Below the pieces are notes generated by a model. It was not told the DNA's origin, ran no database searches, and saw only the letters and a list, made by a program, of their open reading frames with translations. The position numbers and the translations under genes are program-made. From NCBI GenBank assembly GCA_025357835.1, contig JANYLM010000049.1, positions 1 through 64,000 on the forward strand: DNA of 64,000 nucleotides, given 5' to 3'. Positions 13,540-19,694 of this stretch are shown here, piece after piece. Origin of the DNA: Gammaproteobacteria bacterium (lineage in GTDB: Bacteria; Pseudomonadota; Gammaproteobacteria; Steroidobacterales; Steroidobacteraceae). The stretch's first letter is position 1, and every line of letters starts with the position of its first letter.

Positions 13540-14019
13540 TCATAACGACTCGGAAGGGGCGTACAGGTTGACGGCTGCCGGCGTCGCGCGAGATTTGAGC
13601 ACAACGCTAGGTTCGAGGGCTGGTGTGAGGCACCGCGGGTCGTGCGGTAGATTCTTGCGCTCCATCCAGTGAGGCTCACTGAAAAGACTGGCCTGCACGA
13701 GGGTTCCCATGCTGATTTTGCAGCCGGCGTGTTTCAAATGTTGACTCGCGGCGGCAAACAATCGCCTTTCCAATTCGCCATGGTCCAACACAAGTCGGAA
13801 GCGCCAAATCGTATTTTGATCGGGTATCGCATCGCGACTCACATCAATACCAACGAACTCCCGCATGGCCTCGGAGTCATATAAGGCCTCTTCGACCGCC
13901 GTATCGGAGAGGCTAAACCATTGCTTCAGCAAGATGATGCGTAGCATGCGCTTCACCCCCAAGGGCAGCGGCTCTTTCAAACCCGCACGACAATACGGTT
14001 CGATCAGCGCACACAGCAT
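13540..14019 (-). mobile_element. IS5-family transposase remnant
   Basis: The minus strand encodes LCALIEPYCRAGLKEPLPLG, then MLRIILLKQWFSLSDTAVEE, ALYDSEAMREFVGIDVSRDA and IPDQNTIWRFRLVLDHGELE. This is the N-terminal region of IS5-group DDE transposases. The usual first 30-40 residues are missing on one side, where a stop occurs directly next to the NRAMP gene. The catalytic Asp region decays after KISMGTLVQASLF and the rest of the element is absent. It cannot be active. Confidence 0.78.
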
Positions 14020-14052: not shown

Positions 14053-15735
14053 TCAATGGCTGCCCGCGATTAGCTGCGCGATCCGCACCAAGACCAGGCC
14101 TGCGGCAATGAAGAGATAGCCGCGTAGCACCGTGAGAAACGCTCGGTTGAGGACGGTCAGTTCTGCGCGCGGCAACTCGGAAAGCGGCGGCATCCGCCAG
14201 GTCGTTCGTTCAGAGAGCGGCACGATGGGGGTCACCGCGCGAATAACTCCGTGGTGACGCTGCCACAGGAGGATCGCGATCGTTGCCACCACCGCAAGGG
14301 CGCTGCCGCCGCCGAGCACCCCTAAGATCTGCTCTCCCGTGACGCCCGGAAACAATACCGAGGCCGTCAGAATGACCGACAGCATGACGAGCACGGCAAT
14401 GACGGCGCCAGTGAACAGATTAACCGTGAAGGTGTTCGCCCACGGTCCGAGCACCGCCTTGTCGTTGCAGAGCAGAAGCAAAAACACCGTAGCACCGGGC
14501 AACAGGACCCCCGCGAGAGTCTGCACCGCGTTGGTCAGGAGCCCGAGCGGCGTGCCCGGCGTCAACACCAGAGCTGCCGAAATAGCGATCAAGCCGAAAT
14601 AGACCGCGTAAAAGCCCTTCGCGTCAGTGGGTTTGCGGTGCAAGGAATGACGCAGCGACAACACATCGCCGATGGCGTACGCGGTGGACAACGACACCGC
14701 GGAGGCGCCAATGATGCAGGCATCGATCAGCGCAACCGCGAACAGCACGCCGGCCGTGTGGCCTGCATGGAGCCCTAACCCCGTCGCCACCGCGCTCGCG
14801 TCCTTGAACTGGCCAAACTCAGCCGTGCCTTCAAAAGCGGTGGTGGAAAAGCACATCATGGCCACCGCCCCGATGATGACGAGGCCAATACCAAGCCAGA
14901 GGTCAATGCGTTCGTAGCGCATGAAACGCGGCGTAATACGCTTATCTACGACGTAGCTTTGCTGGAAAAACAGCTGCCAAGGCGCCACTGTCGTGCCAAC
15001 GATCGCGATAATCAACAGCATCACATCGGCGAGCGCACCATTTTTCGGAAACCCCGGCACGAGGAAATCGTGCATCAGTTGACCGACCGGGGGGTGTGCC
15101 ATGAGAAAGACTGGCACGAGCAGCAAACTGCCAAACACCAAGACCAACGAAAAACGCTCGAAGCGTCGAAAATCGCCGGTGCTTGCGGCTCCCATGATGA
15201 TGACGGCAGAGACTACGACCCCCCATAATTTAGGGATACCCAAATAGTCGAAGGCCAGCGTCAAGCCAATGAACTCGGTGACGATGGTGAGGGCGTTCAA
15301 TACGAAGAGATCAATGACGCTGAAGGCACCCCAAAATTTGCCGAACCGCTCGAGAATCAACCGCGCATGGCCCACACCGGTCACGGCTCCCAATCGAAGC
15401 ACCATCTCTTGATTTACGTAGAGCACGGGAATCAGCATGAGTAACGTCCAGAGTAACGTTGTCCCGTAATTTTGACCGGCCTGGGTGTACGTACCGAAGG
15501 CGCCCGCGTCATTGTCTCCCACCATGACGATGAGGCCGGGACCCAAGATCGCGAGTAAGGTTTTGAAGCGTGCCCACCAATTCTTACGCGGTCCAACGTC
15601 GTGTTCGCGAATCGTGCCGAACCCGCCACGAATGTCTCCGACGTGCGCGGTATCAAGCTGCGCACCTCGATCGGAGGAATTTTGTGCCAAGGGAATGGGT
15701 GCGCGAATCGCAGCTTCTTCGGTATGGAAAGTCAT
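14053..15735 (-). CDS. NRAMP-related (SLC11) divalent metal transporter with altered metal-site motifs
   Basis: The 560-residue inner-membrane protein has the SLC11 layout with 11-12 membrane segments. In classical MntH proteins segment 1 carries DPGN and segment 6 carries MPH, which coordinate Mn2+/Fe2+. Here segment 1 reads VGDNDAGAFG (residues 72-81) and segment 6 reads VAPWQLFF (A251, P252, W253). Loss of the methionine recalls the Mg2+-transporting NRAMP-related branch, so selectivity for Mn2+ should not be assumed. I chose ATG 15735, preceded by AGGAAATG. It lies 40 bases downstream of the porin gene and probably in the same transcript. Confidence 0.85.
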   Translation of the reverse strand: MTFHTEEAAIRAPIPLAQNSSDRGAQLDTAHVGDIRGGFGTIREHDVGPRKNWWARFKTLLAILGPGLIVMVGDNDAGAFGTYTQAGQNYGTTLLWTLLMLIPVLYVNQEMVLRLGAVTGVGHARLILERFGKFWGAFSVIDLFVLNALTIVTEFIGLTLAFDYLGIPKLWGVVVSAVIIMGAASTGDFRRFERFSLVLVFGSLLLVPVFLMAHPPVGQLMHDFLVPGFPKNGALADVMLLIIAIVGTTVAPWQLFFQQSYVVDKRITPRFMRYERIDLWLGIGLVIIGAVAMMCFSTTAFEGTAEFGQFKDASAVATGLGLHAGHTAGVLFAVALIDACIIGASAVSLSTAYAIGDVLSLRHSLHRKPTDAKGFYAVYFGLIAISAALVLTPGTPLGLLTNAVQTLAGVLLPGATVFLLLLCNDKAVLGPWANTFTVNLFTGAVIAVLVMLSVILTASVLFPGVTGEQILGVLGGGSALAVVATIAILLWQRHHGVIRAVTPIVPLSERTTWRMPPLSELPRAELTVLNRAFLTVLRGYLFIAAGLVLVRIAQLIAGSH

Positions 15736-15775: not shown

Positions 15776-17263
15776 TTAAAACTGCATATGCAGGCGCACG
15801 GCAAAGATCGATGCCGGTCCTCGATCGTGGTTGTAGCCGGGGTGATCAACCCACTGACAATCGAAGCTCAGCTGCGCATGCGAGAAGAGTTGTGCGTTGT
15901 AGTAGGAATCGACAATTTGTTCAGGTCCCGGGTGCGGCAACTGCCCGTCGCCCACTAATATCCCCAAGCCCCCCGCGTTAAAAAACCGCTGCCGATCGGC
16001 TGAAATGTTGTTCTTGAGTCCCGCTAGTCCTAACGTGTCGTGCTCGCGATTCCAGGATGTTCCTTTGAGCGAGAGTCCCGCAGCGACCGAGCGGTCAATG
16101 TCGGTGAACTCGTAGGCTTCGACATTGCCCGCAGCTTTGCCAACGCGGGCAAAGAACCCTAGGTCTTTCACCAATTGCTGTTCAAGGCTGATGCTTGCCC
16201 CTAATCGGCTGCGATATTGGCGCACGGCGCTGATATCCACGGGCTGACCAGTGGCCAGCGCCAGTTGGACTGCGGAATTGAGTATTCCCATCCGCCCACG
16301 ACTTTCATACAGCGTGACCATGACTTTGCCAGGATATTCGCGCAGCGTGTGTCGCTTCTCCAGTTCAGCCACGATTTGAAATTCATGGAGCCCGGGCTCG
16401 AGATGCGCGCTGTTGGGCACGTTCGACAGATCGAAGACTCCCAGACGAGTCGTCCAAGTACCTTGATACCATTCAGCCGCTGCACCCGCCGTGTAACCCC
16501 AAGCATCCGCCGCGTAGTCGAAAGTACCGGCATCGGCAGCTGCCCAGTTCAAAAAATCAGCGCGCGGATCGTGCGCGTATTGGTTGACGTCGAAGATGTC
16601 GGCGACCCCGAACTTGCCGACTGTGAATACCCATCGATTAAGCCCGCGATCCCCGCCAAGCTGATTGGCAGCCGCCTCGGTCGCCTCGCGCTTCCCCGGC
16701 AGATCCAACGTCTGCCTGACGAAAATGCGTGGCAGGCGCATATAGGGCTGATTCTTACCGACTTTGTATGCCTCGCCACTCGGGAATCCGGCGACGCCCA
16801 AGGTGTTGTTGAGGCCAAAGCCCTGATCGATTTCGGGATTGATCCAAAATTCAGCGCCTGACCACAGGTGTGCTCCAAGGTAGAGAGTCAGATCCGTGGT
16901 CTCTTTAGCCCTGCGTGGTGTCAAACTGTTGGCTCCGGCGTAAGGGGCGTTGAAACCGGAAACCTCCTGCTCCACGTAGGTGAATTGCGCATGGAACGCC
17001 CAGACTTCGCTCCGACCCGCGGGCGCGGGTTCGGAGCTCTCCGCATTCGCCGCCGCCACCGACTCGCCAAAGCCCAAGGTCACAGCGGCGAGAATCGCTA
17101 ACACAGACCCCTGTACAAGGTCACTGACTGATGCGCTGTAGGAGAGATGAGCACCGTTTCGCAGTGCGAAGACTTGCAGCACACGAAGCCAGAAAGGGGA
17201 GGTGAAGAAAACACGGAGCACGTGTGCGGTTGAAACGATCGTCGACAACATGATGAGTCCCAT
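15776..17263 (-). CDS. OprB-like carbohydrate-selective porin family protein
   Basis: The mature protein looks like an OprB-family outer-membrane beta-barrel. Typical phrases are YLGAHLWSGAEFWINPEIDQ, FGLNNTLGVAGFPSGEAYKV, GKFGVADIFDVNQYAHDPR and a final strand IFAVRLHMQF ending in Phe. An export signal is visible around residues 45-70 (VLAILAAVTLGFGESVAAANA). The N-terminal 40 residues before it are unusual, so the true start may be internal. It lies upstream of the NRAMP-like gene, suggesting a paired outer/inner-membrane uptake route. The substrate cannot be read from sequence. Confidence 0.82.
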   Translation of the reverse strand: MGLIMLSTIVSTAHVLRVFFTSPFWLRVLQVFALRNGAHLSYSASVSDLVQGSVLAILAAVTLGFGESVAAANAESSEPAPAGRSEVWAFHAQFTYVEQEVSGFNAPYAGANSLTPRRAKETTDLTLYLGAHLWSGAEFWINPEIDQGFGLNNTLGVAGFPSGEAYKVGKNQPYMRLPRIFVRQTLDLPGKREATEAAANQLGGDRGLNRWVFTVGKFGVADIFDVNQYAHDPRADFLNWAAADAGTFDYAADAWGYTAGAAAEWYQGTWTTRLGVFDLSNVPNSAHLEPGLHEFQIVAELEKRHTLREYPGKVMVTLYESRGRMGILNSAVQLALATGQPVDISAVRQYRSRLGASISLEQQLVKDLGFFARVGKAAGNVEAYEFTDIDRSVAAGLSLKGTSWNREHDTLGLAGLKNNISADRQRFFNAGGLGILVGDGQLPHPGPEQIVDSYYNAQLFSHAQLSFDCQWVDHPGYNHDRGPASIFAVRLHMQF

Positions 17264-17311
17264 ATTTTTATGAATTGCTCAAAGAACGGCATGAGGTGCG
17301 TTCGCGGCCTT

Positions 17312-17536
17312 TTATTCCAAAAATCCCATGGCACAAGCCGCCATGAGACTTGAGAGCGCGACGACGGCAAGCATCCAGAGCCATAGCAGCCACTGGAAGG
17401 TAACGCTCCAGACGCCCTTGAGCGTCTCGGACAGCTCGCCTGGGTGGCGTCGCATAATGCTTGGGATAGGCAACAAACCAGCGGCAGGGCACCCCGCTCG
17501 CGGACTCAACAGTCGATCAGTCAAAATGGCAGCCAT
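17312..17536 (-). CDS. Small single-pass membrane protein upstream of the porin
   Basis: A 74-residue frame with a good ribosome site (GAGGAAAG) encodes a polar N-terminus (MRRHPGELSETLKG) and one long hydrophobic segment (WLLWLWMLAVVALSSLMAAC). No family is recognised. Its position as first gene before the porin and transporter suggests an accessory role in the same metal operon, or simply a leader gene. Being short, it remains uncertain. Confidence 0.5.
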   Translation of the reverse strand: MAAILTDRLLSPRAGCPAAGLLPIPSIMRRHPGELSETLKGVWSVTFQWLLWLWMLAVVALSSLMAACAMGFLE

Positions 17537-17650
17537 ATCGCTTTCCTCGGGTTTTCAGCGATTGTTTGAGCCCGAGAAAAGCGAAAGGGACTCGGCTAGC
17601 GCATTAGCACCATCCAGCCATCAGGCACTCTTCTTCGGGCCATGATCCAA

Positions 17651-17700
17651 ACCCTTGAAGAGACGCCAACAGGCACACACTGTTGGCTGTCATCAAGGGT
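17651..17700. ncRNA. Long two-part stem-loop in the leader region (candidate cis-regulatory RNA)
   Basis: An outer stem pairs ACCCTTGA (17651-17658) with TCAAGGGT (17693-17700). An inner stem pairs GCCAACAG (17665-17672) with CTGTTGGC (17680-17687) around a seven-base loop. The two perfect 8-bp helices are separated by small internal loops. On the minus strand this falls in the expected 5' leader of the small membrane protein-porin-NRAMP genes. No T-run follows. I do not match it to a known riboswitch. Confidence 0.45.
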
Positions 17701-17815
17701 CTGGGTACTAGGTTGTGGGTCCATAGGACGTGTAAAATCTCCGGTCAAAGAATCAGTCGAGCCTTGTTTAAGAATGCCGCTGTTGAATCGCTGCAGCTTT
17801 TTTAACCGCCGCACC

Positions 17816-17832
17816 ATACCCTACCCCGGTAT
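17816..17832. promoter_or_regulatory. Candidate RcnR-type operator, copy 1
   Basis: The site is ATACC-CTACCCC-GGTAT, an inverted repeat around a C-rich centre of the kind bound by CsoR/RcnR/FrmR repressors. It lies 28 bases before the rcnR-like start and upstream of the oppositely oriented porin operon. A near-identical copy lies at 18571-18587. Confidence 0.65.
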
Positions 17833-17859
17833 AGCAAAGCAATAGCATCCTGAGGAAAC

Positions 17860-18141
17860 ATGAATCACGTCGCGAAAGAAAAGACAAAACTTCTGAATCG
17901 TCTAAAACGCATGCGCGGTCAGATCGAAGGGATCGAACGCGCCGTCGATGCGGACAACGAATGCGCAATGGTGCTTCAACAGGCAACCGCGTGCCGCGGC
18001 GCGCTAGACGGCTTTATCGCGGAAGTCATTGAGGACCATATCCGTGAACACATGGTCGATCGGCGCGAGCCGCGGGATTCCCCGCAGGTTGCTGCGGCCG
18101 AGGAGCTAATCGATATAGTGCATCAGTACTTGAAGAAGTGA
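17860..18141 (+). CDS. RcnR/FrmR-family (DUF156) metal-sensing repressor
   Basis: The 93-residue all-helical protein is a member of the CsoR/RcnR/FrmR family, tetrameric repressors that release DNA on metal or formaldehyde binding. His3, Cys35, His60 and His64 are all present, the set used by E. coli RcnR for Ni2+/Co2+. FrmR proteins lack the full set. NRLKRMRGQIEGIERAV and ACRGALDGFIAEVIEDHIRE are family cores. GAGGAAAC precedes the start. The candidate operator just upstream suggests autoregulation and control of the divergent NRAMP/porin genes. Confidence 0.88.
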   Translation: MNHVAKEKTKLLNRLKRMRGQIEGIERAVDADNECAMVLQQATACRGALDGFIAEVIEDHIREHMVDRREPRDSPQVAAAEELIDIVHQYLKK

Positions 18142-18155
18142 ACTCGGTTGCGAGG

Positions 18156-18524
18156 CTATAGATCTAGCACGCTTTCCCACCACACATCGCGCACGCCAGC
18201 CAGCTGTAGCCGCGCAATCAACGCCACCACTTGGCAACGCGATACGCGCACGCTGCGCACGATCGCCTCGAAGGCGTAGAGCGCCTGCCCGGCGGCGGTA
18301 GTTTTTGTCCGCTGACTCAGAACAATGAGATTATCCGCTAGCGCTTCACGGAGCAGCGGCTCAATGTCTTCTAAAGACTGCCCACACTGCACCCTCAATC
18401 GAAACATGGTCTCCGAAGCGTATACCTGCGAACGAAGCTCAGATGATTTGCGCCGAAGGATCCAAGTCTTGGCGGACGCGTCGCGCCGCAGGTCATGCGC
18501 CGGGGATCTGAGGGTTGCTTGCAT
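18156..18524 (-). CDS. Hypothetical protein downstream of the second RcnR-type operator
   Basis: The 122-residue frame (ATG 18524) has sensible codon use but no recognised domain. It is rich in Arg and Leu with predicted helices (LEDIEPLLREALADNLIVLS, AIVRSVRVSRCQVVALIARL) and few cysteines, so it is not an obvious metal carrier. The operator at 18571-18587 lies 47 bases upstream of its start, which is the main reason to take it seriously. It converges on the rcnR-like gene with a 14-base gap. Confidence 0.5.
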   Translation of the reverse strand: MQATLRSPAHDLRRDASAKTWILRRKSSELRSQVYASETMFRLRVQCGQSLEDIEPLLREALADNLIVLSQRTKTTAAGQALYAFEAIVRSVRVSRCQVVALIARLQLAGVRDVWWESVLDL

Positions 18525-18570
18525 GGATGTGCGCTCCCAATGGACTTAATACGCTATATCGTTTTATTGT

Positions 18571-18587
18571 ATACCCTACCCCTGTAT
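18571..18587. promoter_or_regulatory. Candidate RcnR-type operator, copy 2
   Basis: ATACCCTACCCCTGTAT differs from the copy at 17816-17832 by one base in seventeen. It sits in AT-rich promoter-like DNA upstream of the minus-strand gene ending at 18156, and upstream of a decayed region on the plus strand. The shared sequence over 750 bp is unlikely by chance. Confidence 0.62.
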
Positions 18588-19694
18588 ATTAACAATAATA
18601 AAGAAATTGCCTAAAATGAATCAAACATCGGCTGGTCAATATTGCACGCCGGTTTACACCCAGCATCCTACTCGGCAGCTAAGCGCAACCAGTTAATCCC
18701 CAGGGGCATGGCTCGAGCGCTTGTGCACGGCCAATGGACTAAGGAACGCATCTCGACTGTTGCGAAGAAGTGCAAGATCGTGGGGAGTTTCGCAAGGGTT
18801 ATCCAAGTGCCTATACCATCGCAGCCTCTAAGGGATGGCTCAAAAATGTTTGCGGACACATGTATCCCTAGACCCCATCACTTTGGCCGAGTGCACGGAA
18901 GTGAATGACTGTACCGGGCCGACAATTCGATTCCAATTACTGGGTCAGCCACCGTTTGTCCGCGGTTTTAAGCCTCCCGATGGCAGCCCGCCGCGACAGT
19001 CAGCTTGGGCTTTAAGCCGTTGAAATAGAACATGGTGCATCGCCGCTAACGTACGTTCTGATCCGTTTCTTGAGCTGATGGCGAAGCGGGCTGTCAGCTT
19101 CCCACCCAATTGCGGACATTAACGATGAGTTGGATGCGTAGATCCGACCCTAAAGGGACTTCGCTGTAGCGCTGGATAAGGCGCGCGTTTCCATTTCAGC
19201 ACCGTGGTTTGCGCGACGCCGCCAATCGTCATCAGGGGCGATTCTTCCCATCACCAGCGTCGCGCCGAGGATCACCAATACGACCAATTTTTCTAGCATG
19301 AGCGCCAAGGATGGTGTGACGGATTTCGGTATTTCATTGAGCGCGGGGAAAACGCGCAGAAGCGCAAGTATGCATGCGGCCAAGAATGAGGACATACAGC
19401 AACGCGCTCCAGCCGGCGCGAATTCTCGAGTCGTTGATGAACATCTGTCTGATTATCGACCCTGTGCCTCCCGACTCTGCTGTGAACGTCGACGACCGCA
19501 TTTAGCGTCCCAAGCCACATGGCATCTGCCCTATCTTGCACAATTCGGGCAATAATCGACCACTTGAGCGTCCGACCCAGCCGACGCGAATGCCCGCCAT
19601 GAACACGTTACCGGCGGTGGACCGGCCGGCTGCCACCGGCCTCGACACATCATGCTAGGGGTGTCTGTGCGCAATTTTGGCATAAGGTAGATGG
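18588..19694. other. 1.1-kb decayed region
   Basis: No gene is convincing on either strand. A 26-residue peptide from ATG 18615 (MNQTSAGQYCTPVYTQHPTR and six more) follows operator copy 2 on the plus strand and may be the stub of a lost metal-responsive gene. A short hydrophobic peptide on the minus strand near 19297 (MLEKLVVLVILGATLVMGRI) has no context. The composition is less GC-rich than the flanks and stop codons are frequent. Confidence 0.4.

Follow-up and report, generated by a model that had tools for sequence, protein, structure and literature searches.

Introduction

According to PMC7055735, the Ni/Co members of the CsoR/RcnR family control metal export, and one of the family, InrS of Synechocystis, has an additional place of action ahead of the nik operon for import. 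The same paper names His3, Glu34, Cys35, Glu63 and His64 as the ligand side chains of RcnR, gives the RcnR operator as TACT-G6-N-AGTA, states that rcnR and rcnA share one operator site, and assigns the fingerprint HCHH to DmeR. In the DmeR-DmeF systems of Rhizobium, Agrobacterium and Sinorhizobium, a Ni/Co-responsive repressor is paired with a cation-diffusion exporter. FrmR uses Pro2 and carries Glu64, and a single substitution makes it sense Zn and Co (PMC5016687). Two further systems bear on the genes that neighbor the regulator described here. The NRMT magnesium transporters are distinguished by the motifs DxxG (helix 1) and TxxA/T (helix 6; PMC8806188), and expression of mgtB involves a short ORF whose first codons include acidic ones, together with a translation-inhibiting stem-loop (PMC8092293).

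The locus considered here lies within a stretch of 64,000 nucleotides (hereafter the window) from a gammaproteobacterium of the family Steroidobacteraceae. An earlier note, made from the sequence of the window, had proposed that two near-identical 17-mers on either side of a CsoR/RcnR-family gene define a small metal regulon. We consider it probable, on sequence evidence, that the two 17-mers serve as operators for the regulator encoded between them. The features on which the argument relies are as follows.

14053-15735, minus strand: NRAMP-family transporter, NRMT-like (Pfam PF01566, 265.5 bits; best solved relative 7qia)
15776-17263, minus strand: OprB-family porin (Pfam PF04966, 161.4 bits)
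17312-17536, minus strand: 74-aa ORF, the first past the hairpin (ORF list; C-terminal half hydrophobic by eye)
17538-17584, minus strand: hairpin with a 14-bp stem over the ribosome-binding site of the 74-aa ORF (folding versus shuffles)
17596-17724, minus strand: candidate leader ORF of 42 codons, MDPQPSTQTLDD... (predicted; first residues like those of relatives)
17813-17842, minus strand: sigma70-like promoter TTGCTT-18-TATGGT (promoter scoring; same layout in relatives)
17816-17832, no strand assigned: operator-like site 1, ATACCCTACCCCGGTAT (pattern match)
17860-18141, plus strand: CsoR/RcnR-family regulator of 93 aa, DmeR-like, with H3 E34 C35 H60 E63 H64 (Pfam, alignment, tree)
18156-18524, minus strand: 122-aa orphan ORF (ORF list; GGGAG nine bases before ATG)
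18566-18595, minus strand: sigma70-like promoter TTGTTA-18-TACAAT (consensus scan and scoring)
18571-18587, no strand assigned: operator-like site 2, ATACCCTACCCCTGTAT (pattern match)

Results

The regulator carries a complete Ni/Co ligand set

The regulator is a member of the CsoR/RcnR family, as evident by its score of 85.9 bits against Pfam PF02583 (DUF156; cut-off 22.8). It scores below the cut-offs of the equivalog models for RcnR (NCBIfam NF011613, 64.8 bits; cut-off 138) and for FrmR (NCBIfam NF008464, 86.4 bits; cut-off 133). FrmR is its best-scoring named family, and FrmR structures are its closest solved relatives. However, the presence of Asn2 and His64 instead of Pro2 and Glu64 weakens an FrmR reading. 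His3, Cys35, His60 and His64, which the earlier note had singled out, are borne out by the alignment, as are Glu34 and Glu63; the complete RcnR-type Ni/Co sensor set of His3, Glu34, Cys35, His60, Glu63 and His64 is present.

A tree of 22 homologues places the window regulator in a clade of eight (support 99/98), seven of which carry the full ligand set, with Asp63 in the eighth. Among the 14 homologues outside this clade, Gly34 occurs in eight, Thr63 in eight and both in six. Neither Glu34 nor Glu63 is found in ten of the 14, and L015 combines Glu34 with Asp63. The window resembles E. coli RcnR-RcnAB in the five ligands named in PMC7055735, in His60, and in a tract operator between inverted TAC/GTA arms, but differs in falling short of the RcnR cut-off (64.8 against 138 bits), in the interruption of the tract, and in having a target other than RcnA. 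The rcnR-like identity proposed earlier thus holds as to the family and the Ni/Co ligand set, but not as to the RcnR threshold, and DmeR is the nearest type of regulator because of the gene neighborhood. Judged by these features, the protein is better named DmeR-like than RcnR-like.

The neighborhood resembles DmeR-DmeF, but the exporter is absent

In one relative (G190), whose regulator is 78% identical, a His-rich cation-efflux gene lies about 25 bases behind the regulator gene, and genes for OprB and NRAMP are divergent from it. Loci L120, L037, L046, L073 and L085 likewise bring together NRAMP, cation efflux and a regulator of the window type. On gene order, this layout is that of DmeR-DmeF, extended by an NRAMP operon. 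The defining linkage of DmeR-DmeF, a regulator encoded with a cation-diffusion exporter, is found in G190 but not in the window, and within the clade of eight a cation-efflux gene adjoining the regulator was seen in G190 only. Outside this locus, the genome that contains the window encodes cation efflux twice; one of these genes adjoins the single further CsoR-family gene found, and neither has the 17-mer nearby at up to two mismatches. Since the efflux gene is still in place behind the G190 regulator, the window regulator looks like a DmeR that has been separated from its partner exporter.

When the window was searched for a remnant of an exporter or of MgtC, the best match (19362-19517, E 0.095) was not credible. 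Elsewhere in the same genome (locus L131, contig C78), the other CsoR-family gene lies directly ahead of a His-rich cation-efflux gene, and from this gene order metal export there appears to be controlled by a different regulator.

The family and the HCHH fingerprint are common to the window and DmeR-DmeF, a close homologue of the regulator in the window precedes a cation-efflux gene, and a tract operator lies upstream of the regulator. The differences are the lack of an exporter at the window locus, a divergent target consisting of a porin and an NRMT-like importer, and the presence of both Glu34 and Glu63. InrS shows that a family member acting on import genes would not be unprecedented, but it has another ligand set and comes from another organism.

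OprB, NRAMP or both are divergent from the regulator in each of the eight clade members. The locus includes an NRAMP gene in the window, G190, L089 and L112, and an incomplete one, in two pieces, in G106. In G182, G161 and G193, NRAMP was not found at the locus and a porin is there, which makes the porin the steadier partner of the regulator. The G106 copy, which follows the porin (L117, 11315-12042), looks broken, as its two matching pieces are separate and the middle is missing.

Two rare 17-mers share a core but not their surroundings

The two 17-mer copies reported earlier are indeed present one mismatch apart, with 16 of 17 bases in agreement. They are the sole matches at up to three mismatches in the 64-kb window; shuffled windows yielded a mean of 0.08 matches, and two matches occurred in none of 100 shuffles. 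The earlier note had also raised the possibility that the 17-mer is a dispersed repeat. Sites 1 and 2 are the only matches at up to two mismatches in the entire draft genome (4,049,548 bases in 148 contigs, 94% complete), in which a backwards control pattern gave one match, and the 17-mer is therefore not a dispersed repeat.

The 20-base flanks of the two sites have just 3 and 5 identities out of 20, which rules out site 2 as a stretch copied from site 1. Matching cores with unlike flanks suggest that the same short site was kept or made twice. Compared with the RcnR-type operator, the window sites have TAC/GTA arms rather than TACT/AGTA and a broken G-tract (GGGGTAGGG); the tracts of clade relatives are 4-7 long.

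Site 1 is retained ahead of the regulator in relatives

A congener (G182) has ATACCCTACCCCCGTAT at the orthologous place, with no mismatches at the specified bases, and its genome holds one more 17-mer match elsewhere with two mismatches. G066 carries a reversed one-mismatch copy 13 bases upstream of its 46% identical regulator homologue, and the remaining six of the eight relatives searched with the 17-mer pattern gave no match. In G190 and G106, the site is changed to TATACCCCCCCTTACTATC but still lies ahead of the regulator. Most of the other regulator homologues listed show, at about this position, a run of C or G between arms that resemble TAT/ATA; no operator-like tract was evident upstream of the regulator in L061 and L092, and a match to the regulator is absent from the congener G058. 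As read from these tracts and arms, site 1 is kept in place across the supported eight-member regulator clade. A second site beside a regulator was not found in eight other genomes, five of which were also searched with a second pattern.

Both sites fall within promoter-like elements

Site 1 is located inside the spacer of TTGCTT-18-TATGGT and shares three bases with the -10 box. This promoter points toward the leader, the 74-aa ORF, the OprB porin and the NRAMP gene on the minus strand. Alone it is weak, as evident by the fact that 88 of 200 shuffles reach its score, and a general consensus promoter scan of the window omitted it from a list that includes the site 2 promoter. Site 2 is likewise inside the spacer of TTGTTA-18-TACAAT, sharing one base with the -10 box; this promoter heads to the 122-aa ORF, and its score is reached by 13 of 200 shuffles. 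A further promoter-like sequence, TTAACA-17-TAAAAT, occurs just past site 2 (18589-18617, plus strand) and heads away from the 122-aa ORF.

Promoters were scored on the divergent strand of 12 sequences, and the best one spans the C/G tract in ten, namely the eight clade members (window site 1 included), L065 and window site 2. The two exceptions are L120 and L085, where the best divergent promoter does not lie across the tract. Such matches are favored because the half-sites ATAC/GTAT resemble -10 boxes; however, the -35 TTG lies outside the site. The weight of the promoter evidence rests on recurrence in relatives, and the single scores are modest. On the plus strand, site 1 is 27 bases from the start codon of the regulator, and the consensus scan listed no promoter near site 1 on this strand (promoter scoring covered the divergent strand). 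The earlier proposal that site 1 controls both the regulator gene and the divergent porin/NRAMP genes is thus supported in part, in that the site is conserved in place in relatives and overlaps a predicted divergent promoter.

The divergent operon encodes a porin and a probable magnesium importer

The divergent porin and NRAMP genes noted earlier are confirmed by Pfam (OprB and Nramp). Among solved structures, the NRAMP protein matches 7qia (EleNRMT, a Mg2+ transporter) best, at 170.8 bits, and the runner-up scores 72.9. We compared it with the best 80 of at least 588 candidate NRAMP loci, which were chosen by similarity and are not independent. Within these best 80 of at least 588, helix 6 reads GTTVAPW (the TxxA of NRMT) in 69 and GTTIAPW in 11, and helix 1 reads DAGA (DxxA), not DxxG, in 75 as well as in the window; in the other five, the motif was probably misread by the search pattern. 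The window protein therefore has TxxA as in NRMT proteins but DxxA where DxxG is expected. It shares with the NRMT magnesium transporters of C. acetobutylicum and E. lenta both TxxA in helix 6 and Trp replacing the first His, and differs from them in DxxA in helix 1 and in that Rfam finds no M-box. Mg2+ is its likely substrate, as far as sequence can indicate. The Ni/Co ligand set in the earlier note is thus confirmed for the regulator, but its targets do not readily suggest a simple 'Ni/Co regulon', because the nearest branch to the NRAMP protein is NRMT, which transports Mg2+.

Genes flanking the best 80 of at least 588 NRAMP loci include MgtC-like genes at 21 (an assignment verified by Pfam for one member), OprB-like genes at 22 (the count used here; the cluster comprises 29 loci when small loci are included) and CsoR-family genes at 16. 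The MgtC-like neighbors are at most an indirect pointer to Mg2+ transport. The regulator is of the window type at nine of these 16 loci and of a second type at eight, with both at one locus. Gene clustering omitted L001, L002, L033 (the window itself) and most of the small loci L009-L034. The second CsoR-family type, unlike that of the window, is near NRAMP at L041, L043, L050, L052, L055, L057, L073 and L079. In the window, the NRAMP gene is immediately followed by an ORF with a transposase domain (DUF772; 13540-14019, minus strand).

A candidate leader precedes the porin gene

The earlier note was silent on the 74-aa ORF and the leader stretch between site 1 and the porin. Folding of a 96-nt stretch that contains the hairpin gave z = -4.66, and none of 200 shuffles was equally stable. 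The 74-aa ORF matches no Pfam or NCBIfam family, and its codon score of -0.029 makes its reality as a gene unsure. The window leader ORF begins MDPQPS, and several relatives have MDPLPS, MDPHPR, MNPRPS, MNTRSS or similar; the leader frame of G182 continues into the porin, and a similar leader was not seen in G161 and G193.

These features recall the Salmonella mgtCBRU short ORFs mgtQ, mgtM and mgtP, in which Asp occupies codon 2 and a hairpin farther on masks a ribosome-binding site before Mg-transport genes. When viewed against mgtQ, the window leader has Asp2 and the stable hairpin, but it lacks Glu5 and is 42 codons long rather than 8, and support for the likeness is confined to the hairpin and the first residues. 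We regard leader regulation as a lead only, the peptide evidence being limited to the first few residues. A known riboswitch in this leader was also considered and rejected, as an Rfam search of the window gave no family. No match was obtained in window positions 17250-18700 at E values up to 5. At the gathering threshold, Rfam returned nothing, M-box included, for the window or for eight related loci, L085 among them, taken from the best 80 of at least 588 NRAMP loci.

Other NRAMP loci carry leaders of their own. A conserved leader block about 340-840 bases upstream of NRAMP occurs at 21 Burkholderiales loci (e.g. L046, L048, L085 and L113), in many of them after a TTGACT...TAAAAT-like promoter. 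Within it, a 14-residue TTG-start ORF, MD[STA]CS[SC]R...A, ends with TGA in 21 of 21 (19 distinct sequences); this stricter pattern yields 21 loci and a looser one 26. The block permits alternative, attenuator-like pairings when read by eye (CTGCC / GGCAGGACG / CGTCCTGCC / GGCAGACGG). It was rejected as a purely coded peptide: the shares of synonymous differences were 0.41 and 0.42 in frames 0 and 1, and such equal shares do not single out the TTG-start frame. L062, L075, L083 and other Burkholderiales loci have a second short ORF, which lies about 350-470 bases ahead of NRAMP. Its ribosome-binding site is good, and its peptide is rich in early Asp, with DSDS after one to three residues. The sequence GACAGTGACAGT is upstream of NRAMP at 14 of 77 loci versus 0 of 228 control stretches. 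Another short ORF, starting ATGGGCAGT (MGS...), is upstream of NRAMP at L035, L043, L050, L051, L056-L058, L073, L077, L081, L095 and L110. The hexamer CAGTAG is upstream of NRAMP at 42 of 77 loci, which are not independent, versus 12 of 228 control stretches.

The ORF behind site 2 is an orphan

The 122-residue gene that the earlier note placed behind site 2 is present as an ORF, with 46 bases between it and the site. Its protein matches no Pfam family (up to E 0.1) or NCBIfam family, has no credible relative other than in its own genome among 196 order-level or 369 class-level genomes, and has none in 72,556 plasmids. The lone weak match in the order-level genomes (G172, contig C126, 4493-4759, minus strand; 31% identity) was discounted as spurious, since a longer ORF (L122, 3704-4720, plus strand) occupies the other strand there. 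The codon score of 0.061 bits per codon is barely the best of the six frames (0.050 for the reverse frame), and seven of 34 shadow ORFs outscore it. The protein was also considered as a candidate freed C-terminal (ACT-like) domain of MgtC: the hhalign comparison spans 83 columns with P 0.0011, yet a probability of 20%; with hmmsearch, the protein is outscored by 3 of 999 shuffles using the full MgtC profile and by 4 of 999 using the C-terminal profile. The MgtC domain PF02308 is absent from the window genome. A single-sequence structure model is poor (pLDDT 49.6). Site 2 and the orphan gene found no comparative support, and no counterpart of site 2 was found in the relatives searched.

Discussion

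By analogy with RcnR and DmeR, a tetramer of the metal-free regulator would cover the promoter and block RNA polymerase, and binding of metal would release it from the DNA. Given the ligand set, the effector would be Ni(II) or Co(II). From site 1, the regulator would repress the divergent operon of leader, 74-aa ORF, OprB and NRAMP, and probably its own gene as well; from site 2, it would repress the 122-aa ORF. The regulator may descend from a DmeR whose partner exporter, DmeF, left this locus, so that the remaining regulon would consist of a porin and a probable Mg2+ importer. The likely sense of such a circuit would be greater uptake of Mg2+ under competition from Ni or Co. We rate this Mg2+ logic below the operator reading, and we infer the direction of the response, the effector, the binding, the substrate and the function of site 2. 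An importer induced by the metal that its repressor senses would be unusual. In Cupriavidus, uptake systems for Mg2+ and other broad-range systems are routes for transition metals (PMC5069749 and PMC12632275). The opposite concern is therefore real, since more importer would let more metal in.

Site 1 could instead serve autoregulation only, with the divergent operon governed elsewhere (e.g. by its leader) and site 2 a stray, an arrangement that we consider unlikely. It would suit the spacing, as the site lies 27 bases from the regulator start codon but about 280 bases from the 74-aa ORF, and it would accommodate the weakness of the divergent promoter alone, the location of the best divergent promoter of L120 away from the site, and the strong hairpin over a ribosome-binding site in the leader. 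However, the tract is in the spacer of the best divergent promoter in all eight clade members scored, the consensus scan lists no promoter at that place on the regulator strand (promoter scoring was of the divergent strand), and the pairing of regulator and OprB is kept in the seven clade members in which a porin was seen, with NRAMP in L112. Site 2, considered separately, has a genuine though lesser chance of being a coincidence or a decaying copy ahead of an ORF that is not a functional gene. The lack of relatives for the 122-aa protein in 369 class-level genomes (its own excepted) and 72,556 plasmids, the lone 31% match opposite a longer ORF in 196 order-level genomes, the modest codon score and the pLDDT of 49.6 all point that way, whereas the retention of 16 of 17 bases between unrelated flanks, the promoter-like match around the site and the GGGAG ahead of the ATG argue for function.

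It is also conceivable, but quite improbable in our estimation, that the regulator senses a signal other than Ni/Co (formaldehyde, like FrmR, or Mn or Zn), and that the operon answers this signal. The ranking of FrmR as best-scoring named family (86.4 bits) and closest solved structure, the single substitution that gives FrmR Zn/Co sensing (PMC5016687), and targets that are not exporters would all agree with this. Yet Asn2 and His64 replace the Pro2 and Glu64 of FrmR, E34 and E63 are as in RcnR, and the score is under the FrmR cut-off. As regards formaldehyde, none of the seven Pfam-scanned proteins of this stretch is a formaldehyde-detoxifying enzyme.

A broader conjecture, offered tentatively and with more doubt than conviction, is that divergent modules of this kind in Proteobacteria join two signals. 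A DmeR-type repressor would open the porin/NRMT promoter on Ni/Co, a leader ORF and hairpin would tune expression to Mg2+ by ribosome drop-off as in mgtQ/mgtL, and the exporter would have been dropped in the window lineage. Within the titles and abstract beginnings of the open-access papers searched, we found nothing that ties DmeR or RcnR to an NRAMP/NRMT operon, nor a leader peptide to NRMT. If the proposal is true, the locus would represent a compact two-site regulon, and NRMT genes would carry regulatory leaders that have no Rfam match in the loci searched. A type of repressor known for switching on Ni/Co export would have been turned to an operon for Mg2+ uptake, and stress from transition metals would thereby be linked genetically, and directly, to the supply of Mg2+.
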